A stretch of DNA of 64,000 bases. It comes from Bacteroidota bacterium. GTDB taxonomy: Bacteria; Bacteroidota; Bacteroidia; Chitinophagales; Chitinophagaceae. The stretch lies in assembly GCA_005798905.1 (NCBI GenBank), contig SYIK01000011.1, positions 62,001-126,000 of the forward strand, given 5' to 3'. The notes beneath the pieces were generated by a model. That model did no database searches, was not told the origin of the DNA, and worked only from the letters and a program-made list of their open reading frames with translations. The translations under genes and the position numbers were made by a program. Positions 349-21,283 of the stretch are shown here, piece by piece; position 1 is the first letter of the stretch, and the number at the start of each line of letters is the position of its first letter.

Positions 349-1632
349 TTAATTATTCATTGCCTGATAAGTTAATGCTCTAAATTTCTCAACTACATCT
401 CCGTGGGTGCTGCTTTGTAATTGACGATAAAAAAGTAAAACCATTTTTTCTTTTGGGTCTACCCAGTACGAAGTTGCAAATGCGCCGCCCCAACTAAAAG
501 TGCCTGCCTGCGCAGGTGTTCGCGCACTTCCTTTTTCTGATACAATTAAAAATCCCAGACCAAATTTATCATCATTACTAAAAGGGATATCACCAATTTG
601 ATTCATTGTCATTAAGCGAACGGTGTTTTTCCCCAACAATCTTTTTCCGTCATAAATTCCTCCATTCAATAACATTTGTAAAAAAATAGCATAATCGTAA
701 ATGGTGGATGACAAACCCGCACCGCCCGAATAATACTCACTTTTGTATAATGGATAATTGGATGAAATTGTTTTTCCATTCAACATATTGCTTTGTGATT
801 TAATCAGTTTGCCCAACGAATCTTCTTTGTATAAATTCACCAATCGTGTTGCTTTGTTTTCAGGAATTTGAAAATAAGTGTCCTGCATATTTAGCGGCTC
901 AAAAATTCTTTTTACAAAAAAGTCATTCAAGCTCATTCCAGAAATAACTTCTACCAAACAACCCAATAAATCTGAGTTCAATCCGTAAGTCCATCTTTCG
1001 CCGGGTTGATGCAATAATGGAAGTTTACCTAATCGTGACATTGCACTTAATAAAGATTCGCTTGTTACGCCAATACCCGCAGTGAGATTGCTTTTTGCAT
1101 AAAGTGCATTTGCTTCTTTGCTTCCAATTTGTGCATAGCCAATGCCCGAAGTATGCGTAAGTAATTCGCGAATTGTAACTTCTTTTTTAGCAGGAATCAC
1201 CGTGTAAGTTGTATCCAAAAGATTGAATTTGTCGATAACAGATTGTTTTTTGAAAGACGGAATGTATTTTGAAACTGGATCATCCAATAATAATTTTCCT
1301 TCTTCGAAAAGCATCATAACGGCAACACTTGTAATTGCTTTTGTTTGCGATGCAATTCTAAAAATGTTATCTTTTTTTAAAATTGATTTTGAGTCTAAAT
1401 CATTAAACCCTGCTGCTTTGTGGTAAACAATTTTCCCATCTCGAATAATCAATGCCACACCGCCATTCATCCATCCTTTGTCGGTCCAATCTTTCATCGC
1501 ATTGTCAATTCTTAAAAGTCGCTCACTCGAGAAACCAGCCGATTCCGGATTAGTAGCTTGTTCAATTTTTTGTGCAGAAATAATTGAAATCTGCAAAAAA
1601 GTAAAAGCGAAGAGTAGAAATTGTTTTTTCAT
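349..1632 (-). CDS. Secreted serine hydrolase, beta-lactamase/penicillin-binding-protein-like family
   Basis: A 427-residue protein with a signal peptide (residues 1-20, ending ISA-Q). The acylation motif SxxK is SQTK at 95-98, and Y216 in WTYGLN fits the catalytic tyrosine of class C beta-lactamase-like esterases and D-Ala-D-Ala peptidases. The HTSGIGY segment around 160-166 is also typical of this family. Such proteins act in the periplasm on ester or amide bonds; the substrate cannot be read from sequence. It is the last of three same-strand genes, 27 bases after the CDGSH gene, so probably cotranscribed with it and the MeaB gene, although no functional link is obvious. I see no sign that it confers beta-lactam resistance. 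Confidence 0.85.
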   Translation of the reverse strand: MKKQFLLFAFTFLQISIISAQKIEQATNPESAGFSSERLLRIDNAMKDWTDKGWMNGGVALIIRDGKIVYHKAAGFNDLDSKSILKKDNIFRIASQTKAITSVAVMMLFEEGKLLLDDPVSKYIPSFKKQSVIDKFNLLDTTYTVIPAKKEVTIRELLTHTSGIGYAQIGSKEANALYAKSNLTAGIGVTSESLLSAMSRLGKLPLLHQPGERWTYGLNSDLLGCLVEVISGMSLNDFFVKRIFEPLNMQDTYFQIPENKATRLVNLYKEDSLGKLIKSQSNMLNGKTISSNYPLYKSEYYSGGAGLSSTIYDYAIFLQMLLNGGIYDGKRLLGKNTVRLMTMNQIGDIPFSNDDKFGLGFLIVSEKGSARTPAQAGTFSWGGAFATSYWVDPKEKMVLLFYRQLQSSTHGDVVEKFRALTYQAMNN

Positions 1633-1659
1633 AAATCTTAATTTGATGATAAAAGGAGA

Positions 1660-1941
1660 TTACTTATTATTTTCTTTTATTGAACGATGCGAGCCATCAC
1701 AAAACGGTGGCGTTTTACTGTGCTTGCATTGGCAAAAAGCAATTTCTGTTTCTTTTTCAAATTGTACTTTCATACTTCTGTATGGCATTCCTTCTATTTT
1801 TTTATGCGAGCCATCGCAAAAAGGTTGTTTTTCGCTTAATCCACAAGTGCACCAAGAATATATTTTTCCAGCTTCTACTTTAATTGTTTTGGGATTGCAA
1901 GCAGCAATTATCGGAAAATTTTCGTTTGGAATTAACTCCAT
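1660..1941 (-). CDS. CDGSH iron-sulfur domain protein with two motifs
   Basis: A 93-residue protein made of two mini-domains, each with the C-x-C-x2-(S/T/H)...C-D-G-S-H pattern: CTCG...FCDGSH and CQCK...FCDGSH. The three Cys and one His of each motif bind a 2Fe-2S cluster in the mitoNEET/CISD family, so this is predicted to carry two clusters. There is no signal peptide, so it should be cytoplasmic. It starts 2 bases after the MeaB stop codon and is followed after 27 bases by a serine hydrolase, so the three probably share a transcript. Its partner is unknown; electron transfer or cluster transfer are the usual proposals for the family. Confidence 0.9.
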   Translation of the reverse strand: MELIPNENFPIIAACNPKTIKVEAGKIYSWCTCGLSEKQPFCDGSHKKIEGMPYRSMKVQFEKETEIAFCQCKHSKTPPFCDGSHRSIKENNK

Positions 1942-1943
1942 AA

Positions 1944-2846
1944 TTATTCAAATTTTTTCATGTAAACATACAACTGAAATTCATTTTTTATCATCAAGGA
2001 TTTTACTTCAGCAAAAAATTCTTTCTTATCGATGTGTTTCATTTTTTTTTGTTGAATGAGCTGCCAAGCTTTTTCGGCTTGCAACCAATATTTTTTTTCT
2101 TTTGTATGAGTATGTTTTAATAAATGAAGCAATTGTTTGTACAATTCATCAATCCCAAAATTTTCAATAGCGATTGTTTTTACAATTGGAATTTCGTTGT
2201 AATGATTACGAAAAGATGGCGCTAACATTTGTTGCAAATTTTTTACAAACAAATCTGCATCGGGTCGGTCGGCTTTGTTTACCACAAAAATGTCGGCTAT
2301 TTCCATCAAGCCGGCTTTCATTGTTTGCACTTCATCTCCTGCTTCGGGTACAACGGTAACAATAGTTACATCAGCCAACCCTGTTATTTCAATTTCACTT
2401 TGACCAACTCCAACAGTTTCAATAATTATTAAATCAAATCCAACTGCTTTTACCAATTCGGTTATTTCAATAATTTTCGGACTCAATCCGCCAAGCGAGC
2501 CGCGACTTGCTAATGAACGAACAAAAACATTGGGATGGTTTTGCCAATTGGTCATCCGAATTCTGTCTCCCAAAATAGCACCAAGATTAAAAGGCGATGA
2601 TGGATCAATGCATAATATGGCAATTTTTTTTCCATCATTCACCAATTTTCCAATTAACGCATCTACTAAACTACTTTTTCCGGATCCGGGGGGGCCGGTA
2701 ATTCCAATAACAGGTGTGGCAACTGAATGCGTCAACGATTGTAATAATTGTTCGTAGCCTTCCGATTCGTTTTCAACAATCGAAATACTACGAGCCAACG
2801 CTTTTTTATCGCTCTGTTTAAGTTGTTGAATTAATTCAGCAATCAT
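1944..2846 (-). CDS. meaB: MeaB/ArgK-type GTPase, methylmalonyl-CoA mutase chaperone
   Basis: A G3E-family P-loop GTPase of 300 residues. The Walker A loop is GPPGSGKS at about 51-58, followed by IDPSSP, the switch region with GDRIRM, ETVGVGQSE (Walker B area) and the base-specificity motif NKAD. MeaB proteins guard B12-dependent acyl-CoA mutases: they gate cofactor loading and remove damaged cobalamin in a GTP-dependent way. A longer frame begins at a TTG at 2861, but a -7 box at 2867-2874 puts the transcript start near 2863, so the ATG at 2846 is preferred. The only mutase in the window (IcmF, 17111) carries its own built-in G-domain, so this protein may serve another mutase elsewhere. Confidence 0.92.
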   Translation of the reverse strand: MIAELIQQLKQSDKKALARSISIVENESEGYEQLLQSLTHSVATPVIGITGPPGSGKSSLVDALIGKLVNDGKKIAILCIDPSSPFNLGAILGDRIRMTNWQNHPNVFVRSLASRGSLGGLSPKIIEITELVKAVGFDLIIIETVGVGQSEIEITGLADVTIVTVVPEAGDEVQTMKAGLMEIADIFVVNKADRPDADLFVKNLQQMLAPSFRNHYNEIPIVKTIAIENFGIDELYKQLLHLLKHTHTKEKKYWLQAEKAWQLIQQKKMKHIDKKEFFAEVKSLMIKNEFQLYVYMKKFE

Positions 2847-2866
2847 TTTTATCAAAATCAATTATT

Positions 2867-2874
2867 CAAAAATA
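2867..2874 (-). promoter_or_regulatory. -7 promoter box for meaB operon
   Basis: Minus-strand TATTTTTG matches the Bacteroidota primary-sigma -7 consensus TAnnTTTG. It leaves a leader of roughly 17 bases to the ATG at 2846 and overlaps no coding sequence. No clear -33 element was seen. Confidence 0.55.
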
Positions 2875-2911
2875 CGTTGTATCATAACGAGATACGAAAT
2901 TAGGGAAGACC

Positions 2912-2919
2912 TATTTTTG
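2912..2919 (+). promoter_or_regulatory. -7 promoter box for glycosyltransferase gene
   Basis: TATTTTTG matches TAnnTTTG exactly. Only 4 bases separate it from the ATG at 2924, so transcription should begin at or next to the start codon, giving a leaderless or near-leaderless mRNA. Confidence 0.55.
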
Positions 2920-2923
2920 CGTT

Positions 2924-3679
2924 ATGCCACAAATTTCCGTTGTAATCATTTGTAAAAATGAAGCACAAAATATTGGGAACACATTAAATAGTTTTCAAGG
3001 GATTACCGACGATATAATCGTTTACGATAATGGAAGCGAAGATGGAACGCAGCAAATTGTAAAAGACTTTGGCGCTAATTTGGTTGAAAGCAGTTGGGAA
3101 GGTTTTGGCAAAACAAAAAACAAAGCAATTGCATTGGCAAAATATGATTGGATTTTTTGCCCGGATGCAGATGAAGCAATTGACGAAGCTGCAAAAAAAG
3201 AATTGGGTAATATTAACTTTTCGGACGAAACTATCGTGTATCAATTTCGGTTTAAAAATTTCTTTTCCGAAAAATGGATTCGTTTTGGTGAATGGGGAAA
3301 AGACAAACACATTCGCTTATTTAATCGTAAAAAAAATAAATGGAGCGAAGATGCGGTGCACGAACAGTTGCTTTTACCGTATTATATCAAATCAGTTTTG
3401 TTGAAAGGATTCATACTTCATCACACTGCAAAAAATGTAAACGAGTATGAAATAAAAATGAGAAAATATGCAAAATTAGGCGCTGAAAAATATTTTCGTC
3501 AAGGTAAAAAAGTAAGTTGGTTAAAAATAATTTCATCTCCTTGTTTTTCTTTTATTAAAAACTATGTTTTCAAATTTGGATTTTTAGATGGAAAGGAAGG
3601 ATTTGCCTGCGCATGGCTTAGCGCACTTTATACATTTTTGAAATACAAAGAACTGAATCAACTCACAAATAAAAGCTAA
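2924..3679 (+). CDS. Family 2 glycosyltransferase, WaaE/KdtX-like
   Basis: A 251-residue GT-A fold glycosyltransferase. It opens with SVVIICKNEAQNIGNTL, the family-2 nucleotide-sugar binding strand, has YDNGSEDGT at about 36-44, and a DxD-like metal site in CPDADEA near residue 80. These features and the length resemble the WaaE/KdtX group that adds a glucose to the LPS inner core, but the acceptor here is not known. It is the first gene of a rightward run: coaX starts 27 bases after it with its own -7 box. The ATG sits 4 bases after a consensus -7 box, which suggests leaderless translation. Confidence 0.88.
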   Translation: MPQISVVIICKNEAQNIGNTLNSFQGITDDIIVYDNGSEDGTQQIVKDFGANLVESSWEGFGKTKNKAIALAKYDWIFCPDADEAIDEAAKKELGNINFSDETIVYQFRFKNFFSEKWIRFGEWGKDKHIRLFNRKKNKWSEDAVHEQLLLPYYIKSVLLKGFILHHTAKNVNEYEIKMRKYAKLGAEKYFRQGKKVSWLKIISSPCFSFIKNYVFKFGFLDGKEGFACAWLSALYTFLKYKELNQLTNKS

Positions 3680-3694
3680 ATACAATTTTCGTAT

Positions 3695-3702
3695 TATTTT
3701 TG
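3695..3702 (+). promoter_or_regulatory. -7 promoter box for coaX
   Basis: TATTTTTG, an exact TAnnTTTG match, lies in the 27-base gap before coaX. Its last base is 4 bases before the ATG at 3707, the same unusually close spacing as at 2912-2919. Confidence 0.5.
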
Positions 3703-3706
3703 TTTT

Positions 3707-4435
3707 ATGGTTACTACTTTTTGCCTTGATTTTGGAAACACAAGAAAAAAAATTGCAATTTTTGAAAATAAACTACTCATAAATACCATTGAAATAATAG
3801 AAGATGATTATGAAACGATTTCAACTTTAATTAAAAAATATAATCCGCAAAAATCAATCCTTTCTTCTGTCGTCAATCATAATTCGGAATTGGAAATTCT
3901 ACTTGCAGAAAAAACAAAATTTCACAAACTCAATCACCTTTCTAAACTTTCTTTTACCACAGCTGTTGGTAAACCAGAAACAATTGGAACAGACCGATTA
4001 GCGATGTCGGAAGCTGTTGTTTATTTTTTCCCGAATCAGAACAATCTTGTTATTGCTTTGGGAACTTGCATTACCTATAATTTTCTAAATAAAGAACATG
4101 AATTTTTTGGGGGAGGTATTTCTCCTGGTATGGAAATGCGTTTCAAATCGCTGAATCACTACACCGCATTATTGCCGATTGTAAAGCCAGAAAGCATTGT
4201 TCCGCTTATTGGTTATGATACGGTAACCAACATTACAAGTGGGGTTATACTTGGAATGGCAAACGAAATTGACGGATTTATTGATTCATATAAACTGAAA
4301 TTCAACAATTTTAATGTCCATTTAACCGGAGGAGATATAGTCTATTTGGCTCCGCACCTTAAAAACAAGATATTTGCGGATTCTGAATTAATTTTTAAAG
4401 GACTTTATGCAATCAGTGAAACGAACAATCAGTAA
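3707..4435 (+). CDS. coaX: Type III pantothenate kinase
   Basis: A 242-residue ASKHA-fold kinase that phosphorylates pantothenate, the first step of coenzyme A synthesis. Evidence: the N-terminal phosphate loop LDFGNTR, the GTDR motif (TIGTDRLAMSE) and the GGGISPGMEMR segment that follows the second phosphate loop. That second loop reads IALGTCITYNF, whereas well-studied CoaX enzymes have acidic residues in it (DxGTAxTxD), so two usual Asp positions are Leu and Asn here; this may be a lineage trait. The 3' end overlaps the next gene by 29 bases, implying translational coupling with the outer-membrane protein and lptC. Confidence 0.9.
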   Translation: MVTTFCLDFGNTRKKIAIFENKLLINTIEIIEDDYETISTLIKKYNPQKSILSSVVNHNSELEILLAEKTKFHKLNHLSKLSFTTAVGKPETIGTDRLAMSEAVVYFFPNQNNLVIALGTCITYNFLNKEHEFFGGGISPGMEMRFKSLNHYTALLPIVKPESIVPLIGYDTVTNITSGVILGMANEIDGFIDSYKLKFNNFNVHLTGGDIVYLAPHLKNKIFADSELIFKGLYAISETNNQ

Positions 4436-5795
4436 AAAAATCAGTTTAATTGGACTGTCAAGTTTGGTATTTTTTATAACAGTAAAAGCGCAGGACAATT
4501 CGCCTTATTCTCGCTATGGTATTGGAGATCTACATTCCAACACTACTGTGTTGAACCGTGGAATGGGAGGTGTAAGCGCGGCATATTCCGATCAACTTTC
4601 TGTCAATTTTTCCAATCCAGCTTCGTATTCTTCTTTATTTTCTATGTTGGAAGGAAAGTCGAAAAAATCCGCTTATAGTAGAATTTTACTAGATATCGGA
4701 TTGAATTTGGATAGTCGAACTTTACACGAAACAGATAATCCAGAAAAGTTTAATGTTTCCAATGCATTTTTCTCCTATTTACAAATGGGAATTCCGCTTA
4801 AAAAAAATTGGGGATTTACATTTGGTTTGCGCCCTATTTCTTCAATCAGTTATAAAGTAAGAAGGTTTGAGCGTTTGAAAGATCCATTTACCGGTTTGCC
4901 GATAGATAGCGCCGTTACGGATTTCACTGGAGAAGGTGGAAGTTTTCTTGTAAACACAGGAACAGGATATGCAATCAAAAAATTTAGTTTTGGAATAAAT
5001 GCCGGTTATCTTTTTGGTAAAAAAGATTACAGCAGCAAACGCTTATTGATTAACGATTCGGTGGAATACAATCGTTCCAATCATCAAACAAAAACAACTT
5101 TTGGGAACCTGTTTTTTAGTGGCGGGTTGCAATATCGAGTGAATTTGAACACTGCAAAAACAACATATATTCAAGTAGGACTTTTTGGAAATACAAAACA
5201 TACGTTGAATTCGCGCACCGATAAAATTCGCGAAACATATTTTCGCGTAGCCGATGGCGGTGAGTTTCGCCTGGACAGTGTTTCCGAACAACTTGACATA
5301 AAAGGAACAATTATTTATCCGGCAAGTTTTGGCGGTGGAATAATAATGGAAAGACTTGCTGATGATAAAAAAGGCGGGCTTTTAGTTGGCATTGATTTTA
5401 TTCATAATGGGTGGGATGATTATCGGGAGAATAATTTACGCGATGCGGTTAAAAACAATTGGCAATTAAAAATCGGAACGCAATTTAAGCCGACAACCAA
5501 AAATGCACAGTACAAAAATTTTATGGCATATCGTGCAGGATTAATTCTTGGAACGAGTTATGTGCAGTTGAATAAAAAGTTACCCGAGTTCGGAATTTCT
5601 GCAGGCGTAAGTTTACCTGTTGCAAATTTGAAAGATGCTGCAAGAAGGTTTCGCACACAATATACTGTTGTAAATATTTCTGTTGAATATTTAAAGCGTG
5701 GCACAAAAGAAAATTTACTACGCGAAGATTTATTTAGACTTTCTGCAGGATTTACATTGAGCGATCTTTGGTTTACTAAACGCAAGTATGACTAA
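4407..5795 (+). CDS. Predicted outer-membrane beta-barrel protein
   Basis: A 462-residue protein with a signal peptide ending near VKAQ (about residue 28). It contains SPYSRYGIGD and NRGMGGVSAAYSD followed by VNFSNPASYSS, a pattern of Bacteroidota outer-membrane proteins related in style to the PorV/FadL group, then many alternating hydrophobic strands. The function is not known. The ATG at 4407 overlaps coaX by 29 bases; a GTG nine bases further in would give a more compact signal peptide (MKRTISKK). Its 3' end overlaps lptC by 8 bases. The operon position next to LptC suggests a role in envelope assembly, which is inference. Confidence 0.7.
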   Translation: MQSVKRTISKKISLIGLSSLVFFITVKAQDNSPYSRYGIGDLHSNTTVLNRGMGGVSAAYSDQLSVNFSNPASYSSLFSMLEGKSKKSAYSRILLDIGLNLDSRTLHETDNPEKFNVSNAFFSYLQMGIPLKKNWGFTFGLRPISSISYKVRRFERLKDPFTGLPIDSAVTDFTGEGGSFLVNTGTGYAIKKFSFGINAGYLFGKKDYSSKRLLINDSVEYNRSNHQTKTTFGNLFFSGGLQYRVNLNTAKTTYIQVGLFGNTKHTLNSRTDKIRETYFRVADGGEFRLDSVSEQLDIKGTIIYPASFGGGIIMERLADDKKGGLLVGIDFIHNGWDDYRENNLRDAVKNNWQLKIGTQFKPTTKNAQYKNFMAYRAGLILGTSYVQLNKKLPEFGISAGVSLPVANLKDAARRFRTQYTVVNISVEYLKRGTKENLLREDLFRLSAGFTLSDLWFTKRKYD

Positions 5796-6351
5796 TTATT
5801 TTTCAACAATATTTTTAAAACCAACAGCAACCTTTTTATTGAGTTGCTGTTTTTTATTGAGCTGCGAAAACGATCTAAAATTGATAAAAGCTTGGACAGA
5901 AAAAAGAGAAGTAGCCGAAGAAGCAAAAAATATTGAAAGTTATTTTAGCCAAGATGGTGTGATGCGTGCAAAGCTTGTTTCTTCGTTCATGCTGCGTTAT
6001 ATGACGGATACTGTTTACACAGAATTTCCGAAAGCACTTCATGTTGATTTTTATGATGACAGTTTACAAATTAAAAGTTGGCTTTCGGCACGTTATGGCA
6101 AATATTACGAAAGTATGAACAAGGTTTTTTTAAGAGATAGCGTAATGGTGGTAAATAGAGATGGAGATACATTGCGATGTCCCGAATTGTGGTGGGATCA
6201 AAATTTACAAAAATTTTATTCCGACAAACCAACGCGATTGGACGGTAAAGACAAACATATTGTCGGCAATCAAGGTATGGAAGCCACGCAAGATTTGAAA
6301 GTGATTACATTTAATTATCCAACGGGACCTTTTCAAATGAAAGAAAATTAG
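5788..6351 (+). CDS. lptC: LPS export periplasmic protein LptC
   Basis: A 187-residue protein with an N-terminal hydrophobic segment ending LLSCE, which could be a lipobox-like cleavage site or a membrane anchor, followed by an OstA/LptC-type beta-jellyroll. Supporting stretches are SYFSQDGVMRAKLVSSFMLRY, FPKALHVDFYDDS, SWLSARYGKYYES and ELWWDQNLQKFYSDKP, all typical of Bacteroidota LptC. LptC carries LPS from the inner-membrane LptBFG transporter toward LptA. The ATG overlaps the upstream barrel gene by 8 bases. The adjacent SDR gene begins 18 bases downstream. Confidence 0.87.
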   Translation: MTNYFSTIFLKPTATFLLSCCFLLSCENDLKLIKAWTEKREVAEEAKNIESYFSQDGVMRAKLVSSFMLRYMTDTVYTEFPKALHVDFYDDSLQIKSWLSARYGKYYESMNKVFLRDSVMVVNRDGDTLRCPELWWDQNLQKFYSDKPTRLDGKDKHIVGNQGMEATQDLKVITFNYPTGPFQMKEN

Positions 6352-6369
6352 TAATTAAAAATTTCATCA

Positions 6370-7191
6370 ATGATATTTAAAAACAAAACAATTTTTATTA
6401 CGGGCGCTTCTCGTGGAATTGGAAAAGCAATTGCATTAAAATTAGCATCTGCAAATGCAAATATTGTTATTGCTGCAAAAAGCATCGAAGAAAATTCCAA
6501 ACTTGGAGGAACTATTTTTTCTGCAGCAGCGGAAATCGAAAAAGCTGGTGGAAAAGCGCTGCCCATTCAATGCGACATTCGCAACGAAGAGCAAATTCAA
6601 CAAGCAATTGAAAAAACAATTGCACATTTTGGCGGAATCGATGTTGTAATAAATAATGCAAGTGCAATTAGTTTAACAGCAACTGAAGAAACAGAAAGCA
6701 AAAGATTCGATTTAATAAACGACATCAATGTTCGCGGAACTTTTTTTGTAACAAAAGCATGCATTCCTTATTTGAAAAAAGCAACTAATCCGCATATTCT
6801 TACTTTATCGCCGCCAATTAGTTTGAAACCAAAATGGTTGGGTAGTCATCTTGCATACACGATGACGAAATACAATATGAGTATGATGGCAATGGGTTGG
6901 GCCGAAGAATTAAAACAATATAAAATTGCTTCTAATGCGTTGTGGCCACAAACAACAATTGATACTGCTGCGGTAAGAAATTTATTAGGAGGACAAATGT
7001 TAGCCAATATGAGCCGAACTCCCGAAATACTTGCCGATGCAGCTTATTATATTTTAAAACAATCTTCGGCAACTTGCACCGGAAATTGTTTTATAGATGA
7101 AGAAGTATTGGCAAAAGAAGGAATAACAGATTTGTCTCAATACAGCGTTGTGCCGGGCGCACAATTGTATAAAGATTTATTTTTGGATTAA
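6370..7191 (+). CDS. Short-chain dehydrogenase/reductase
   Basis: A 273-residue Rossmann-fold oxidoreductase. The cofactor loop is TGASRGIGKA near residues 12-21, followed by NNAS, and the catalytic pair lies in YTMTK (YxxxK). The serine position is in LTLSPPIS. Its length and the pattern SRGIGKAIALKLA...AAKSIEEN resemble the HSDL2-like group, often linked to lipid metabolism, but the substrate is unknown. It is the last rightward gene before convergent lysS, whose stop codon is 9 bases away, and no hairpin terminator is visible between the two. Confidence 0.85.
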   Translation: MIFKNKTIFITGASRGIGKAIALKLASANANIVIAAKSIEENSKLGGTIFSAAAEIEKAGGKALPIQCDIRNEEQIQQAIEKTIAHFGGIDVVINNASAISLTATEETESKRFDLINDINVRGTFFVTKACIPYLKKATNPHILTLSPPISLKPKWLGSHLAYTMTKYNMSMMAMGWAEELKQYKIASNALWPQTTIDTAAVRNLLGGQMLANMSRTPEILADAAYYILKQSSATCTGNCFIDEEVLAKEGITDLSQYSVVPGAQLYKDLFLD

Positions 7192-7200
7192 TAAAAATTC

Positions 7201-8727
7201 TTACTCGCCTTCTTTTTTTTCTGGGCGCATCATCGGAAATAAAAGTACGTCTTGAATGGATGGTTGATTGAGCAGCAACATGCAAATACGATCAATACCA
7301 AAACCAATACCAGAAGTTGGAGGCATGCCATATTCCAATGCACGAAGAAAATCGGTATCAATAAACATGGCTTCGTCATCGCCGCGTTCCATTAGTTTTA
7401 CTTGTTCTTCAAAACGATTTCGTTGATCAATTGGGTCGTTCAACTCGCTATAAGCATTTGCAATTTCTTTTCCGTTTATTATCAACTCAAACCTTTCCAC
7501 CAATCCGGGTTTGCTTCGATGTTTTTTTGTAAGCGGGCTCATTTCTACCGGATAGTCCGTAATGAAAGTTGGTTGTATGTAATATGCTTCGCATTTTTTG
7601 CTGAAGATTTCGTCAATCAATTTTCCTTTTCCCATTGTTTTATCCACATGAATGTGCAGCTCATTACAAACTGTTCGCAATTCTGCTTCATTCATATTAC
7701 TGATATCGATACCTGTATGTTCTTTTATTGCATCATACATGGTAATTCTTTTGTACGGCGCTTTGAAATTAATTTCTTTTTCGTTTATTAAAACGGTGCT
7801 TTTTCCATTTACAGCAACTGCAGTTTTTTCCAACAGTTGTTCTGTAATTTCCATCATCCATAAATAATCTTTGTAAGCAACATAAAATTCCAAGATTGTA
7901 AATTCGGGATTGTGCGTACGATCCATTCCTTCGTTTCTAAAATTTCTACTAAACTCATAAACCCATTCAAATCCGCCAACAATCAATCTTTTTAAATAAA
8001 GTTCATTTGCAATTCGCAAATACATCGGCATATTCAGCGCATTGTGCTGTGTGATAAATGGCTTTGCTGATGCACCGCCGGGAATGCTTTGCAAAACAGG
8101 AGTATCAATTTCCAATGCACCGCGTTCATTTAAAAAATTGCGAATGGCATTTACCAATTTTGTTCTTTTTGTAAAAACTTCTTTTACATCGGGGTTGATG
8201 ATTAAATCTACATATCGCTGACGATACTTAAATTCCGGATCGGTAACTACATCAAATTGATGCCCTTCAGCTTCTTTTACAATTGGTAATGGTTTTAATG
8301 CTTTCGTAAGTAGCGTTAATTCTTTTACATGAATGGATGTTTCCCCTGTTTTTGTTTTGAAAACAAAACCTTTTACTCCAATAATATCGCCAATGTCAAT
8401 ACACTTTTTCCAAACGATATCATACAATGATTTATCGTCGCTACTGCAAATATCATCGCGACGAATATAAAGTTGAATGCGACCCGAAGCATCTTGCAAT
8501 AAAGCAAAATTAGCTTTGCCCATATCGCGTACACTCATGATGCGCCCCGCAACACAAACTTCCGTAAACGTTTCTTTATTTTCTTCTGTAAAATTTTCTT
8601 TTATTGCTTCAGCATTTGTTGTAATTGGAAAAGCTGGAGCGGGAAAAGGATCAATTCCCAATGCCAATAATTCGCTCAGTTTTTCTCTGCGTATAAGTTC
8701 TTGTTCGGATAAATTAGGGTTGTTCAT
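7201..8727 (-). CDS. lysS: Lysyl-tRNA synthetase, class II
   Basis: A 508-residue class II aminoacyl-tRNA synthetase that charges tRNA-Lys. An N-terminal OB-fold anticodon-binding domain (VAGRIMSVRDMGK..FALLQD) precedes a catalytic domain with motif 2 (FRNEGMDRTHNPEFT) and motif 3 (GIGFGIDRICMLL). The frame stays open to a TTG at 8751, but that codon lies inside a perfect -7 box at 8749-8756, so the ATG at 8727 (MNNPNLSEQ) is the likely start with a leader of about 16 bases. It is convergent with the SDR gene. Confidence 0.97.
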   Translation of the reverse strand: MNNPNLSEQELIRREKLSELLALGIDPFPAPAFPITTNAEAIKENFTEENKETFTEVCVAGRIMSVRDMGKANFALLQDASGRIQLYIRRDDICSSDDKSLYDIVWKKCIDIGDIIGVKGFVFKTKTGETSIHVKELTLLTKALKPLPIVKEAEGHQFDVVTDPEFKYRQRYVDLIINPDVKEVFTKRTKLVNAIRNFLNERGALEIDTPVLQSIPGGASAKPFITQHNALNMPMYLRIANELYLKRLIVGGFEWVYEFSRNFRNEGMDRTHNPEFTILEFYVAYKDYLWMMEITEQLLEKTAVAVNGKSTVLINEKEINFKAPYKRITMYDAIKEHTGIDISNMNEAELRTVCNELHIHVDKTMGKGKLIDEIFSKKCEAYYIQPTFITDYPVEMSPLTKKHRSKPGLVERFELIINGKEIANAYSELNDPIDQRNRFEEQVKLMERGDDEAMFIDTDFLRALEYGMPPTSGIGFGIDRICMLLLNQPSIQDVLLFPMMRPEKKEGE

Positions 8728-14833: not shown

Positions 14834-15559
14834 TTAAGAAAAAATAGTTTCAGCAATTGCAACCGATTCGGGTTTGCCCACATCCAAAAATTTATCGCCG
14901 CTATGATCAAATCCGAGAATAGTGTGGCTAGAAGCAAGTTTTAAGTAAACATCCGTTAATGAAAATTTCCCACTAAAATTATTTTTTATCATCAAATCAA
15001 AAATGGAATAATCTAAAATGGCAACACAGCTGTATGCTTTTGCAATTAACGGTGAATGATTAATTGCAATTTTTTTTTCATTTGTATTGTTATTTTCCCA
15101 ACCACACAATCGGTTTGTATTGTCGAATAAAAAATTGCGCGAAGAAACTCGATTGGTAACACCAAATGAAATAAGTGGTTTGTTTTGTTGATGAAATAAT
15201 TGTAGTGCGTTGATGTTTAGATTTGTAAGTACATCCACATTGCAAAGAATAAAGGATTCTTTTTTTGTAAAATATTTTTGCGCATTTAATAATCCGCCAC
15301 CCGTTTCCAATACTTCAGTTCGTTCGTCGCTAATTGAAATTTTACTTCCCCAACCGTTGTTTGTTTTTACTGAATTGATAATTTGATCGGCAAAATGATG
15401 CACGTTAATTACGACTTCGTAAATATTAAATTGTTGTAAATATTCAATGTTTCGCTGCAGTAAAGTTTTTCCGTTTACAATTGCCAAAGCCTTGGGGTGC
15501 GTATCCGTCCACGGTTTGAAGCGTGTACCCAATCCTGCTGCGAAAATTATTGCTTTCAT
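14834..15559 (-). CDS. Sugar-1-phosphate nucleotidyltransferase, MurU-like
   Basis: A 241-residue nucleotidyltransferase with the signature AAGLGTRFKPWTDTHPKAL at residues 7-25, the conserved lysine of the product-binding loop and VDVLTNLN (Asp metal site). This fits NDP-sugar pyrophosphorylases and in particular MurU, which makes UDP-MurNAc from MurNAc-1-phosphate. It starts 3 bases after the stop of a kinase that resembles AmgK, the enzyme that supplies MurNAc-1-phosphate, which supports a peptidoglycan sugar salvage role. Other sugar-1-phosphates, such as mannose-1-phosphate, cannot be excluded from sequence alone. Confidence 0.82.
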   Translation of the reverse strand: MKAIIFAAGLGTRFKPWTDTHPKALAIVNGKTLLQRNIEYLQQFNIYEVVINVHHFADQIINSVKTNNGWGSKISISDERTEVLETGGGLLNAQKYFTKKESFILCNVDVLTNLNINALQLFHQQNKPLISFGVTNRVSSRNFLFDNTNRLCGWENNNTNEKKIAINHSPLIAKAYSCVAILDYSIFDLMIKNNFSGKFSLTDVYLKLASSHTILGFDHSGDKFLDVGKPESVAIAETIFS

Positions 15560-15562
15560 TTT

Positions 15563-17017
15563 TTAGAAACCTTTTTGTTCGGTGATGTGTTGTTCGCGAT
15601 GTGTTAAAATTATTTTCACTTTGAATTTATTTCTTAAATGTCTTGCCAAAGCATCGGCTGCAAAAACACTGCGGTGTTGTCCACCGGTGCAGCCAAAATT
15701 AATCGATAGGTTTTCGAAATTTCTTTTTATGTAATCGGTAACGGCGATGTCTACCAAATCAAAAACACTATTTAAAAAAAGCGGCATTTGTGTTTGTTGT
15801 TCTAAAAAATCTTTTACTGGTTTATCGCGTCCTGTAATTATTTTATATTCATCCAATCGGCCTGGGTTTAAAATGCTTCTACAATCAAATACAAAGCCAC
15901 CGCCATTTCCAGATGCATCTTCCGGAATTCCATTTTTGTAAGCAAAGCTGGTAATTTTTATTAAAAGTGGCGTTTGTTCGCTTGCTTGAATTGGTGTAAA
16001 ATAATTTATCGTTTCTTCTTCGGTACAAATGGCTAATACTTTTTGAAATTCTAGTGTGTCAATTTCAATTACATTTTTGCTGAGAAAATGTTTTAGATTC
16101 AAAAGTGCAAATGGAATACTTGTCAAAAAATGAGCTTTTCGTTCAAACAATCCACGAAATCCATAAGCACCTAAAACTTGCAATAAACGAATTAACACAA
16201 AACCGTTGTATTGGTTTTTAAAATTTGGTACATCTATTTTTTCCCCAATTTCTTTTTCAAAAGAAAGGATATAATCGTTCAGTAAATTTTCTTTCCATTC
16301 GTCGCTTAAATTAGCCCGTGCTTGCCACAACATACTTGCTACATCGTACTGTGGTGCACCTTTCATACCACCTTGGTAATCGATAAAATGAGGCGAGTTA
16401 TTTTCATCAATCAAAATATTTCTACTTTGAAAATCGCGAAACATAAAATAATTATACTCTGTGTGCGCAAGATATTGACTAAGCTTTTCGAAATCGTCCA
16501 TCAATTTTTGTTTATCGTACGGACGGCGCAACGCATCTAAAAAATAATATTTAAAATAAAGTAAATCAGCCATGATGGCCTGTTTACCAAATTCGTGATT
16601 TGTGAGGCAACGATTGTAATCAAGTTCTTTATCACCATTCACTTGAAGTTTGGCGAGCGCTTCCAAACTTTTTTTGAAAAGCAAATAAATTTCATTTGTA
16701 AATCCATCTTTTTCCAAAAGTGTTAGCAATGAATCATCGCCAAAATCTTCTTGAATATAAAAAAGTCCATCTTTACTTACAGCATAAATAGTAGCAACGT
16801 GTAAATCTTGTTTACTGAATTTTTTAGAAAAATAAATAAAGACTTCGTTTTCTTTTTTATTTGCTCCGTATGTGCCAATAAGTGTTTGCCCGTCTTTTTC
16901 GTGCAAACGAAAATAGCGTCGTTCGCTTCCGGACTGAGGCAGGACATCAATCGTTTCGATAGAAATTCCTTTCCAGTTTTTATATAGTTCCGATATAGAA
17001 TATAAAGCATCTTGCAT
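15563..17017 (-). CDS. AmgK-like sugar kinase fused to a RapZ C-terminal domain
   Basis: A 484-residue two-domain protein. Residues 1 to about 330 form an aminoglycoside-phosphotransferase-fold kinase, with YFMFRDFQSRNILI (catalytic loop, FRDFQxxN) and HFIDYQGG (metal-binding Asp). Residues about 345-484 match the RapZ C-terminal domain: FAYKNGIPEDA, FVFDCRSILNPGR, TGRDKPVKDFL and GCTGGQHRSVF. AmgK phosphorylates MurNAc and GlcNAc; RapZ-C binds glucosamine-6-phosphate and RNA in enterobacteria. The RapZ N-terminal P-loop domain is absent. The MurU-like gene follows 3 bases later. The ATG sits 4 bases after a consensus -7 box. Confidence 0.88.
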   Translation of the reverse strand: MQDALYSISELYKNWKGISIETIDVLPQSGSERRYFRLHEKDGQTLIGTYGANKKENEVFIYFSKKFSKQDLHVATIYAVSKDGLFYIQEDFGDDSLLTLLEKDGFTNEIYLLFKKSLEALAKLQVNGDKELDYNRCLTNHEFGKQAIMADLLYFKYYFLDALRRPYDKQKLMDDFEKLSQYLAHTEYNYFMFRDFQSRNILIDENNSPHFIDYQGGMKGAPQYDVASMLWQARANLSDEWKENLLNDYILSFEKEIGEKIDVPNFKNQYNGFVLIRLLQVLGAYGFRGLFERKAHFLTSIPFALLNLKHFLSKNVIEIDTLEFQKVLAICTEEETINYFTPIQASEQTPLLIKITSFAYKNGIPEDASGNGGGFVFDCRSILNPGRLDEYKIITGRDKPVKDFLEQQTQMPLFLNSVFDLVDIAVTDYIKRNFENLSINFGCTGGQHRSVFAADALARHLRNKFKVKIILTHREQHITEQKGF

Positions 17018-17110: not shown

Positions 17111-20100
17111 ATGGGCGAAAGACCAAAACATAAAGTTAGAATTGTAACGGCAGCTTCTTTGTTTGATGGGCACGATGCGGCGATAAATATTATGCGCCGA
17201 ATAATGCAAGCAAAAGGCGCAGAAATTATTCATCTTGGACACAATCGCAGCGTACACGAAATTGTTGAAACAGCCATCGAAGAGGATGTGCAAGGCGTTG
17301 CAATTACAAGCTACCAAGGAGGTCATCTTGAATTTTTCAAATACATGAAAGATTTACTTGATGAAAACGGATGTGGGCATATTAAAATATTTGGCGGTGG
17401 TGGTGGAACTATTTTACCAAATGAAATTGAAGAATTACAACAATACGGAATTGCAAAAATATTTTCACCCGACGATGGAAGAAAAATGGGATTGGAAGGA
17501 ATGATTGAAGAAGTAATCAAACAATGCGATATACACTTAAATGGAAATCCCGAATATAAAATTGCACTTAAACTCGAAGAAGCAAAAGATGTTCGAAAAA
17601 TTGCAAGACAGATTACGAATGTAGAAAATGGAGTAAATATAAATGTTGAAAAAGGAAAAGCGGAAATAAAAACGATTCCTGTTTTAGGAGTAACCGGAAC
17701 AGGTGGCGCAGGAAAATCATCAGTTACGGATGAATTGGTGCGCCGATTTCTAAATAATTTTTTAGATAAAACAATTGCAGTCATTTCTGTTGACCCTTCC
17801 AAGAAAAAAACAGGTGGTGCATTGTTGGGAGATCGAATTCGAATGAATTCCATTTCTCATCCAAGAGTCTACATGCGTTCGCTTGCAACAAGAGAAGACA
17901 ATACTGCGCTGAGTGGTGCAGTGAAAGAAGCAATTGCAATTTGTAAAGCGGAACTGTTTGATTTTATTATTTTAGAAAGTGCAGGAGTTGGACAAAGCGA
18001 TGCATCCATTCTTGATTTTTGCGATGTGAGTTTGTATGTAATGACGCCCGAATACGGCGCTGCTTCGCAGTTAGAAAAAATAAACATGCTTGATTTTGCT
18101 GATTTGATTTGTATCAACAAATTTGACAAAGCCGGTGCGCTGGACGCACTTGCAGATGTTCGAAAACAATTCAAACGCAATCACCAAATGTTTTTGGCGA
18201 AAGACAGTGAGCTTCCAATTGTAGGAACAATGGCGAGCAAATTCAACGACGAAGGGGTTAATTATTTATTTGAGTTGCTTTTAAAAAGAATTGAATCGAA
18301 AATGAAAATTTCATTTGGTGAATTTCATTTTTCGGAAACAGCAAAAATTTCGCAAGCAATTATTCCTTCGGGTCGTGTTCGTTATTTGAGCGAAATAAGT
18401 GAGAGCAATCGAAATTATGATCAATTGGTAAAAGAGCAAGCTACAATTGCTTCAAAGCTGTATCAGTTGCATGGAAGTTTGGAAATAATAAAAGAAAATG
18501 TGATTGAATCGCAACTGGAAATTTTACAACAACAAATTAATTTTTATACCGATCAACTTACACCGATTAGTCGAAAATTGATTACAAATTGGGAACAAAA
18601 AAAGAAAGAATATCAAAAAGATTTTTACGAATTCACTGTGCGCGACAAAACGATTCGACAGGAAATGTTTACGAAAAGTTTATCGGGACTTCGTATTCCA
18701 AAAATTGTTTTGCCAAAATATAAAGATTGGGGCGATATTTTAAAATGGCAAGCACAGGAAAATGCTCCCGGACATTTTCCGTTTACTGCAGGTGTGTTTT
18801 CATTAAAAAGAGAAGGAGAAGATCCCACAAGAATGTTTGCAGGAGAAGGAGGGCCGGAAAGAACGAACAAACGATTTCACTATGTAAGTTTGGACCAACC
18901 AGCGAAACGCTTATCCACAGCGTTTGACAGCGTTACACTTTATGGAGAAGATCCTGCACATCGGCCAGATATTTATGGAAAAGTTGGAAATAGTGGAGTT
19001 AGTATTGCAACCGTTGATGATGCAAAAAAATTATACAGTGGTTTCGATTTGTGCGATTTCAAGACAAGCGTATCAATGACAATTAATGGTCCAGCTCCAA
19101 TTGTTCTTGCTTTTTTTCTGAATACAGCAATCGATCAGCAATGCGAAAAATGGATTGAATTAAATGAAAGTTGGGCGGATATAAATAAAAAAATTGTTGA
19201 AAAGTTTAAAAAACAACCACAACCAAAATATTTTAGTGAATCAAAATCGCAGCAATTGCCAGAAGGGAATAATGGACTTGGATTAAAATTATTGGGATTG
19301 AGCGCAGATGAAATTTTACCGAAAGAAATTTATGACCAATGTAAACAAGCTGCACTGCAACAAGTGCGCGGTACTGTTCAAGCAGATATTTTAAAAGAAG
19401 ATCAAGCGCAAAACACTTGTATTTTTTCTACAGAATTTGCATTGAAATTGATGGGTGATGTGCAAGAATATTTTATAAATAAAAAAATTAGAAATTTTTA
19501 TAGTATAAGTATTAGCGGTTATCATATTGCAGAAGCTGGTGCTAATCCAATTACACAGCTAGCATTCACATTGTCGAATGGATTTACTTATGTAGAATAT
19601 TTTCTGAGTCGTGGAATGGCAATTGATGATTTTGCTCCAAATCTATCTTTCTTTTTTAGCAATGGGATGGATCCGGAATACAGTGTAATTGGAAGAGTTG
19701 CTAGAAGAATTTGGGCAAAAGCGATGAAGTATAAATACAAAGCCAATAAACGCAGCCAGATGTTAAAATATCATATTCAAACATCGGGCAGAAGTTTACA
19801 TGCGCAGGAAATAGATTTCAACGATATCCGTACAACGCTTCAAGCACTGTATGCCATTTATGATAATTGTAATTCGTTACATACAAATGCTTATGACGAA
19901 GCAATAACAACACCTACTGAAGAAAGTGTGCGTCGTGCAATGGCAATTCAATTAATAATCAACCGAGAATTAGGAACTGCAAAAACTGAAAACTTTATTC
20001 AAGGAAGTTTTGCGATTGAAGAACTAACTGACTTGGTTGAAGAATCGGTTTTGAAAGAATTTGATAGAATTACAGAACGTGGCGGCGTAATGGGAGCAAT

Positions 20101-20467
20101 GGAAAGAATGTATCAACGAAATAAAATTCAAGAAGAAAGTTTGTATTACGAACATCAAAAACATTCAGGGGAATTGCCCCTTGTTGGCGTAAATACATTT
20201 TTAAATAAAAAAGGAAGTCCAACAATTATTCCCGGCGAAGTAATAAGAAGCACTATGGAAGAAAAGGAAATGCAAATTGAAAACTTACACAAATTTTGCG
20301 AACGAAATAATTCTAATTCACAAGCGATGCTTGAACGGTTGAAAACAGTAGCAATCAACAATGGAAACCTTTTTGAAGAATTAATGGAAACAGTAAAATT
20401 CTGCTCGTTGGGACAAATTACACATGCTTTGTATGCAGTAGGCGGTCAGTATAGAAGAAATATGTAA
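17111..20467 (+). CDS. icmF: Fused B12-dependent acyl-CoA mutase with internal G-domain (IcmF type)
   Basis: A 1118-residue fusion. Residues 1 to about 140 are the cobalamin domain, with the lower-ligand motif DGHDAA, TSYQGG and FGGGGG. Residues about 190-420 are a MeaB-like GTPase: Walker A GTGGAGKS at 196-203, [19 protein letters not shown] and [12 protein letters not shown]. The rest is the mutase TIM barrel, including [47 protein letters not shown] and [11 protein letters not shown]. The domain order is that of IcmF, which interconverts isobutyryl- and butyryl-CoA; the substrate-selective residues were not checked, so methylmalonyl- or pivalyl-CoA remain possible. The gene has its own promoter and ends 9 bases before the amidase gene. 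Confidence 0.93.
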
Positions 20468-20476
20468 TTTGTAAAC

Positions 20477-21283
20477 ATGAAACAGTTTCTATTTATTTTT
20501 TGTACGGCAATTTTTATTACTGCTTGTTCGCCAAAACCATATAGCGAAACAAATAAAAGCTATAAGAAACAAGTCAAACAATTTGCAACAAATTTTAAAA
20601 CCTATCCACTGAATGACTCAGTGGGCTTGCCTTTTGCCAATCAATTTGTAGGGACTACGAATCTTTCCATGCGCCGTCCAAATTTTATTGTCATTCATCA
20701 CACGGCACAAAATAGTTGCGATCAAACTTTAAAAACATTCACCTTGCCACGAACTGCAGTTAGCTCACATTATGTTATTTGTAGAGAAGGAACTGTTTAC
20801 CACATGTTGAACGATTTATTGCGCGCACATCATGCAGGTGTAAGTAAATGGGGCAATGCTACCGATTTAAATTCTTCGAGCATTGGAATTGAAATTGACA
20901 ATAACGGAAGCGAACCATTTTCGGAAATGCAAATGAATAGTTTGTTGTTGTTGTTGGAGCGATTGAAAAAAACATACAGTATTCCAACAGCAAATTTTGT
21001 TGGACATGCCGATGTAGCACCGGGAAGAAAAGTAGATCCAAGCAGGCAATTTTCTTGGAAACAGCTGGCTGATAAAGGATTTGGTCATTGGTACGATACA
21101 ACAAATGTAGAAGTGCCAAATGATTTTAATGCACTTCAAGCTTTAAGAAATATTGGCTATAATACATCAAACACGAAGAATGCAATTCAATCTTATAAAA
21201 TTCATTTTACTCCACAAGACACAACGAATTTTCTTACCAATGGTGATAGGAAAATACTTTTTGAACTTTCAAAAAAATACTAA
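20477..21283 (+). CDS. N-acetylmuramoyl-L-alanine amidase lipoprotein (PGRP/Amidase_2 type)
   Basis: A 268-residue predicted lipoprotein: the signal peptide ends in TACSPK, with the lipobox cysteine near residue 17. The zinc amidase domain shows FIVIHHTAQNS (first His ligand), SSHYVICREGTVYHML, HAGVSKWGN, NSSSIGIEIDNNG and FVGHADVAPGRKVDPSRQF (second His and catalytic Lys region). It cleaves the bond between MurNAc and the stem peptide and may act in wall recycling or remodelling. It follows icmF after 9 bases and is convergent with an MFS gene 9 bases away. Confidence 0.92.
   Translation: MKQFLFIFCTAIFITACSPKPYSETNKSYKKQVKQFATNFKTYPLNDSVGLPFANQFVGTTNLSMRRPNFIVIHHTAQNSCDQTLKTFTLPRTAVSSHYVICREGTVYHMLNDLLRAHHAGVSKWGNATDLNSSSIGIEIDNNGSEPFSEMQMNSLLLLLERLKKTYSIPTANFVGHADVAPGRKVDPSRQFSWKQLADKGFGHWYDTTNVEVPNDFNALQALRNIGYNTSNTKNAIQSYKIHFTPQDTTNFLTNGDRKILFELSKKY

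Follow-up and report, generated by a model that had tools for sequence, protein, structure and literature searches.

A RapZ C-terminal domain accompanies a predicted AmgK/MurU-type salvage pair in Bacteroidota

A kinase–RapZ-C fusion next to a MurU-like gene

In a stretch of 64,000 nucleotides from a Bacteroidota bacterium of the Chitinophagaceae (contig SYIK01000011.1; the window), an open reading frame (ORF) on the minus strand joins an AmgK-like sugar kinase to the C-terminal domain of RapZ (RapZ-C), and a MurU-like gene lies directly behind it. The firm outcome of the analysis is that these parts very probably belong to a salvage module for uridine diphosphate-N-acetylmuramic acid (UDP-MurNAc) that RapZ-C always accompanies. 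As predicted from family and context, free MurNAc would be phosphorylated by the kinase to MurNAc-alpha-1-phosphate, which the MurU-like enzyme would convert to UDP-MurNAc, bypassing MurA/MurB; a three-part MurNAc salvage module of this kind is considered highly likely. RapZ-C itself is probably the obligate third part, handling a phosphorylated sugar in a Cys-x5-Arg anion pocket and not binding RNA. The three-part set is conserved in many Bacteroidota and is not a local oddity.

Two samples were used. In a phylum sample of 392 Bacteroidota genomes, RapZ-C was found by Pfam PF22740. In a second sample, with one genome per species, the fusion served as the query and the best 80 of at least 586 related stretches were analyzed. 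These 80 named loci were retrieved with patterns containing a GGG insert and the GCTGGQHR loop of RapZ-C, so that for those two features the 54 loci of the Pfam search alone count as unbiased.

The fusion protein (484 amino acids [aa]; 15563..17017, minus strand, as are all module features below) was taken from the ORF list and modeled by AlphaFold with a mean pLDDT of 92.4 (95.3 for RapZ-C alone). Three bases separate its stop codon from the ATG of the 241-aa MurU-like ORF (14834..15559). The initial annotation had described one protein with both domains and a MurU-like gene 3 bases on, and this arrangement was borne out by the ORFs, Pfam, and NCBIfam. Since kinase and RapZ-C share a single open frame in 40 of the 54 genomes identified through RapZ-C only and in 80/80 named loci, the fusion is real and is neither a chance event nor an assembly error.

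The kinase domain (aa 1 to 334; 16016..17017) matched the aminoglycoside phosphotransferase (APH) family in Pfam (PF01636, E = 5.4e-9) and aligned as a predicted APH-fold anomeric sugar kinase (alignment A2). Foldseek returned APH-fold kinases, the closest solved structure being 3csv, a putative aminoglycoside phosphotransferase from Silicibacter. The catalytic loop RDFQSRN (aa 194 to 200; 16418..16438) is followed by a second conserved Asp, and D195, N200, and D213 were invariant in alignments A1, A2, and A4. Among kinase models, AmgK (NF045759) scored highest for the fusion (E = 1.1e-14; 54.3 bits, below the equivalog cut-off of 550); the best NCBIfam model overall was RapZ (NF003828), with 105.3 bits against a cut-off of 244 and over profile positions 152 to 277 only.

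For the 241-aa ORF, MurU (NF045761) was the best of 33 matching models (E = 3.1e-32), at 112.2 bits with the equivalog cut-off of 250 not reached. The ORF also matched PF00483 (E = 1.3e-10) and keeps the nucleotidyltransferase signature AAGxG(T/S)R and a conserved Lys23 (alignment A3). From this match and the gene neighborhood, it was assigned as a putative sugar-1-phosphate uridylyltransferase. That kinase and MurU-like enzyme form an AmgK/MurU-type pair for MurNAc salvage, as the initial annotation had suggested, is supported by the family matches (below curated cut-offs), by co-occurrence, and by how often MurQ is lacking in module genomes. What the data show is the anatomy, the fusion and gene order, the co-occurrence, the conservation, and the fold; from there, we infer the substrates and the direction of the route.

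Distribution, gene order, and MurNAc recycling genes

RapZ-C was present in 54/392 Bacteroidota genomes. It was fused to the kinase in 40 of them and encoded by a separate gene adjoining the kinase gene in 8; in the other 6, no kinase was found nearby, with RapZ-C adjoining MurU at L047 and lying near neither gene at L040, L041, L042, L045, and L046. All 54 matches were accounted for by fusions with the kinase (40) and by short ORFs separate from it (14). In the named loci, selected as described, kinase and RapZ-C were fused in 80/80. These stretches, the best 80 of at least 586, came mostly from Bacteroidota, including Bacteroides, Phocaeicola, Parabacteroides, and a Tannerella sp., and also from bins of Ignavibacteria, Calditrichia, Delongbacteria, and Elusimicrobia.

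Kinase, RapZ-C, and MurU followed one another in this order in all eight loci with three separate neighboring genes, in the fused loci with an adjoining MurU gene, and in a triple fusion from a Bacteroidaceae bin, where a single ORF (L101, about 6001 to 8277) holds all three. A MurU gene on the same strand followed downstream within −200 to 500 bases in 42/54 and 51/80 loci. It was missing from that interval in 12/54 and 29/80; among the 29, it was slightly farther away in five (L085, L102, L111, L113, and L125), another is the triple fusion itself, and a further two stop within 435 bases. When the ORFs of 104 loci were grouped by single linkage, no cluster beyond the module's own was found in more than 12 loci, so that no conserved neighbor beyond MurU emerged; the module cluster, in which kinase, RapZ-C, and MurU are lumped together, might mask a further gene.

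A tree of the 54 RapZ-C domains and five canonical RapZ placed all module domains on one side of a branch with a support of 100/99. Within this tree, many forks lack resolution and the bootstrap had not converged; well-supported branches force at least two changes between the fused and the separate state. Were the fusion ancestral, kinase and RapZ-C would have come apart on about three occasions (f4; f41 with f47; L022), always with RapZ-C retained, as would be expected of a part able to work in trans.

The survey of domain co-occurrence that had been proposed for Bacteroidota bears out a close association. A kinase profile exceeded 250 bits in 55 genomes (module class) and gave 86 to 151 bits in 65 others, the 250-bit line having been chosen once it was seen that no score fell between 256 and 151 bits. 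All 54 RapZ-C genomes were among the 55 module-class genomes (Fisher P = 5e-66, relatedness not corrected). MurU scored above 190 bits in 55/55 module-class genomes, also where the genes are far apart; one further genome (G231) had a MurU match of 192 bits and no kinase. The sole module-class genome without RapZ-C (G009; L143, 3590 to 5301) has MurU, and profile searches of this genome gave no match to AnmK, MurQ, or NamZ.

MurQ is an etherase that acts in the catabolic route for MurNAc 6-phosphate (MurNAc-6P). It was missing in 31/54 module genomes and in 0/25 controls (P = 1.6e-7, relatedness not corrected), the controls having been hand-selected among genomes that gave no kinase match. Presence was called at 250 bits or more; the lowest accepted score was 251.9 and the next was 45.4. 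The frequent absence of MurQ in module genomes points to MurNAc salvage. It also resembles proteobacteria, in which an either-or pattern of MurQ and AmgK-MurU has been described (PMC5371407). The window genome has MurQ (300.3 bits, just below the curated cut-off of 302), AnmK, and NamZ, so that the module would there be a second, anabolic route.

Two other recycling genes were considered as markers of the module and rejected. AnmK was found in 36/54 module genomes, with G216 counted as positive despite a weak match (E = 1.2e-10), and in 288/392 genomes overall, which excludes it as a simple predictor. NamZ occurred in 76/80 genomes with and without the module and does not discriminate between them.

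The anion pocket and possible roles of RapZ-C

In Cys-based phosphatases, an oxyanion is bound by a Cys-x5-Arg-Ser/Thr loop that connects a strand to a helix. A loop of this pattern, GCTGGQHRS (aa 442 to 450, extending as GCTGGQHRSV to aa 451; 15668..15694), lies in the RapZ anion pocket of the window protein, between strand 95–102 and helix 108–124 of the RapZ-C model. Cys-x5-Arg-Ser was found in 54/54 members from the family search and in 134/134 in all, against a background of 0.009 motifs of this type per 143 aa in 960 other ORFs (loci L031 to L134). The consensus G-C-[TS]-G-G-x-H-R-S was common to module RapZ-C and the canonical RapZ compared, and conservation was concentrated in or near the loop (C, T, G, G, H, R, and S), together with D378, R380, N384, and H473.

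The domain as a whole is of the RapZ type. RapZ-C spans aa 351 to 476 (15590..15967), PF22740 matching aa 352 to 476 (E = 2e-33), and is the only RapZ-C match found in a search of the window genome. Its model superimposed on the RapZ C-terminal domain (CTD) of Escherichia coli (5o5s) with Z = 19.2 and a root mean square deviation of 1.8 over 123 residues, and in a Foldseek search only RapZ chains (16) fell below E = 0.001. For the ligand residues that the initial annotation had taken as decisive, the outcome was mixed. Five of the six E. coli RapZ pocket residues are kept (C247, T248, G249, H252, and R253), whereas the H190 position, in NPGR (aa 384 to 387; 15857..15868), is Gly in 54/54 members from the family search and in 134/134 in all, followed by Arg or Lys in 133/134. 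In the six canonical RapZ compared, all from other phyla, the H190 position is occupied by His or, in Fusobacterium and Acetoanaerobium, by Tyr. In addition, an (N/H)GGG insert, represented in the window by GNGGG (aa 370 to 374; 15896..15910), was present in 134/134 loci, 80 of which had been chosen by patterns containing it, and absent from the six canonical RapZ compared.

Judged by sequence, RapZ-C may be a modulator of the kinase or an enzyme in its own right. Our single best guess, held tentatively, is that RapZ-C could act as a sugar-phosphate phosphatase of the cysteine type, taking the place of MupP in turning MurNAc-6P into MurNAc. Its substrate, MurNAc-6P formed by AnmK or by some other kinase, would lose the 6-phosphate, and the resulting MurNAc would feed the AmgK-like kinase. 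Such a role would address a particular need: in the 17/54 module genomes with AnmK and no MurQ, MurNAc-6P requires another exit, and the proposal bears on how it is disposed of in these Bacteroidota. AnmK was also missing from 66/66 genomes that have a kinase of either class and no RapZ-C, 65 of which had a MurU match. Work on RapZ and its homologues also speaks for this role. Sulfate and malonate bind the anion pocket of E. coli RapZ (PMC5737377), and activity is lost in its C247A and C247S variants, from which a possible catalytic function of the SH group was proposed (PMC9841335). Phosphatase activity has been cited for the RapZ homologue YvcJ (PMC7525490) and for HpaP (PMC10782981), which, judging from how it is referred to elsewhere (PMC7525490, PMC7073468), is another RapZ homologue.

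Several observations weigh against a phosphatase. AnmK was absent from 18/54 RapZ-C genomes, and AnmK and MurQ were both absent from 14/54, so that MurNAc-6P made by AnmK cannot be the reason for RapZ-C everywhere. The correlation between AnmK and RapZ-C is weak, because the 66 exceptions comprise one family (65 genomes) and one further genome, or about two lineages. The E. coli C247 variants also fail to bind RNA (PMC9841335), which a purely catalytic Cys does not predict. The activities of YvcJ and HpaP are second-hand and may reside in the N-terminal domain, and the E. coli CTD is known as a sensor of glucosamine-6-phosphate (GlcN6P), with no catalysis by the CTD shown in the excerpts of that literature.

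The fold comparisons were equivocal. In VIA-align, dual-specificity phosphatases reached Z = 4.5 to 5.0, within the range of common folds; phosphofructokinases (4.8 to 6.1) and P-loop folds (up to 6.9) matched or exceeded these scores, and methyltransferases stood beside them. For DUSP19 (4d3q, title R156A), the offset at the alignment end places Arg156 within one residue of model Arg108, a position interpolated rather than read from the alignment. Low-molecular-weight protein tyrosine phosphatases (PTPs) were not among the 50 VIA-align matches listed, and homology to them was rejected after a negative profile comparison (probability, 0.6%), in which the kinase and MurU control comparisons were equally empty. 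Module RapZ-C shares the C-x5-R-S loop with dual-specificity and low-molecular-weight PTPs, approaches them in overall fold only at a Z of about 5, and lacks profile similarity to the latter; the apparent resemblance is retained at the level of the motif and, weakly, of the fold only.

Close behind, and also tentative, is the proposal closest to the initial annotation, namely, that RapZ-C might sense an amino sugar. It would bind an amino-sugar phosphate or a UDP-sugar and thereby raise or lower the activity of the AmgK-like kinase and with it the salvage of UDP-MurNAc. The E. coli RapZ-CTD binds GlcN6P (PMC7073468), the pocket is mostly kept, and kinase fusion in 40/54 genomes fits regulation in cis. 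Retention of RapZ-C in the 14 genomes lacking both AnmK and MurQ also speaks for a sensor. However, H190 has become an invariant Gly and the GGG insert has been added, so that the ligand in the module is probably not GlcN6P. YvcJ binds UDP-GlcNAc (N-acetylglucosamine), but this binding is lost in the Walker A mutant K22A (PMC7525490) and so may not belong to RapZ-C. RapZ-C is, moreover, separate from or unlinked to the kinase in 14/54 genomes without having been lost. The tentative standing of both the phosphatase and the sensor reflects the weak fold likeness, the negative low-molecular-weight PTP profile, the genomes without AnmK, and the sensing and RNA-binding data from E. coli.

A structural part is unlikely. 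RapZ-C would then be a dimerization platform or scaffold that joins the kinase and MurU and channels MurNAc-1-phosphate, for which the dimeric state shown for the E. coli RapZ-CTD (PMC5737377) and the triple fusion with MurU at L101 can be cited; conservation is centered on the pocket loop, however, which a scaffold does not need. It is more improbable still that the kinase and the nucleotidyltransferase act on a sugar other than MurNAc or GlcNAc. Both proteins score far under the NCBIfam equivalog cut-offs, but AmgK and MurU are still the top models of their kind and MurQ is frequently absent from module genomes.

An RNA adaptor of the enterobacterial type, which would agree with the shared domain, the public annotation, and a Lys in the window protein at the position of E. 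coli K170, near the RNA, was rejected as very improbable, as was the RNA sensing entertained in the initial annotation: Pfam and alignment found no RapZ N-terminal P-loop NTPase domain in the window fusion, which has the APH-fold kinase in its place; in the alignments, the RapZ-C tail lacks the basic RNA-binding consensus RxRxKNxQxRHRTxxKRK (quoted in PMC7525490); according to PMC7073468, this tail region occurs in Enterobacteriaceae only; and H190A, at the position that is Gly here, abolishes E. coli RapZ function (PMC9841335).

A wider version of the phosphatase proposal is doubtful. RapZ-C would be an ancient cysteine-type sugar-phosphate phosphatase that was welded, as a MurNAc-6P phosphatase, to AmgK in Bacteroidota and some other phyla (and to MurU as well in one genome), and the GlcN6P and RNA sensing of enterobacteria would be a later re-use of its active site. 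It is the catalysis, here as in the narrower proposal, that we infer. The findings bear on the role of RapZ-C outside enterobacteria. They also connect the RapZ proteins, which are known as RNA regulators from E. coli, with a metabolic module found in Bacteroidota, including the gut genera Bacteroides, Phocaeicola, and Parabacteroides.

Related systems, public annotation, and surrounding genes

To our knowledge, the AmgK of Pseudomonas putida has no RapZ-C domain. MupP of Pseudomonas is a HAD phosphatase unrelated to RapZ-C. By Pfam and fold comparison, RapZ-C belongs to a different family and would at most work like MupP. The module resembles the AmgK-MupP-MurU system of P. putida in that the kinase adjoins the uridylyltransferase and in that it often occurs where MurQ is absent; unlike that system, its kinase carries RapZ-C and its scores fall below the equivalog cut-offs. 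In P. putida, the anomeric kinase and the uridylyltransferase are encoded side by side, MurNAc-6P is reported to accumulate when mupP is missing, and the AmgK/MurU route in Pseudomonas bypasses the target of fosfomycin (PMC5371407).

With RapZ of E. coli, YvcJ of Bacillus subtilis, and HpaP of Xanthomonas, the module shares the fold of the C-terminal domain (against E. coli RapZ, Z of 19) and the greater part of the anion pocket. It differs in that the P-loop NTPase N-terminal domain is replaced by an APH-fold kinase or absent and in that there is no RNA-binding tail. Within RapZ-C, NPG instead of NPH or NPY, the GGG insert, and the 100/99 branch set the module domains apart from canonical RapZ.

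A divergent AmgK-MurU pair exists in the same phylum. All 65 genomes with kinase scores of 86 to 151 bits belong to one family (f18); a PF22740 search found RapZ-C in 0/65 of them, and 64/65 had a MurU match of E = 1e-25 or better. Of six f18 loci retrieved, four were mapped, and L144 alone was scanned with Pfam. On its minus strand (1208 to 5838), genes for a divergent AmgK, MurU, a NamZ exo-muramidase, and a sodium:solute symporter stand in a row without RapZ-C, and its MurU bears a hexapeptide-like C-terminal tail; L145 and L146 look like it by eye. The position of NamZ and the symporter behind the pair at L144 also speaks for MurNAc as the sugar. The f18 pair shares with the module the combination of kinase and nucleotidyltransferase but has no RapZ-C, scores low against the kinase profile, and, at L144, adds the MurU tail, NamZ, and the symporter.

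No description of a kinase/RapZ-C/MurU module was found in the open-licence literature. In that literature, RapZ was not found together with AmgK or with "tyrosine phosphatase," and it occurred together with Bacteroides only in work on phage resistance in E. coli. UPF0042 and CX5R did not occur in one paper among the open-licence matches listed. AmgK, MurU, and Bacteroidetes occurred together only in an open-licence paper on Tannerella, which names AmgK and MurU and not RapZ; in two papers on Tannerella MurK, MurU was found only in reference lists and RapZ not at all. In public annotation, the fusions of Bacteroides finegoldii (L135, 2993 to 4423) and Parabacteroides distasonis (L136, 2981 to 4411) are named "RNase adapter RapZ." This label is called into question by our results and is misleading, because the fusions lack the RapZ N-terminal domain.

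Elsewhere in the window, on the plus strand, an N-acetylmuramoyl-L-alanine amidase (20477 to 21283; Amidase_2, E = 4e-30), lipoprotein-like by eye, lies close to the module. A divergent ORF of 1,118 aa stands between the two (17111 to 20467, plus strand) and looks by eye like an IcmF-type fusion of an acyl-CoA mutase and its G-protein chaperone.

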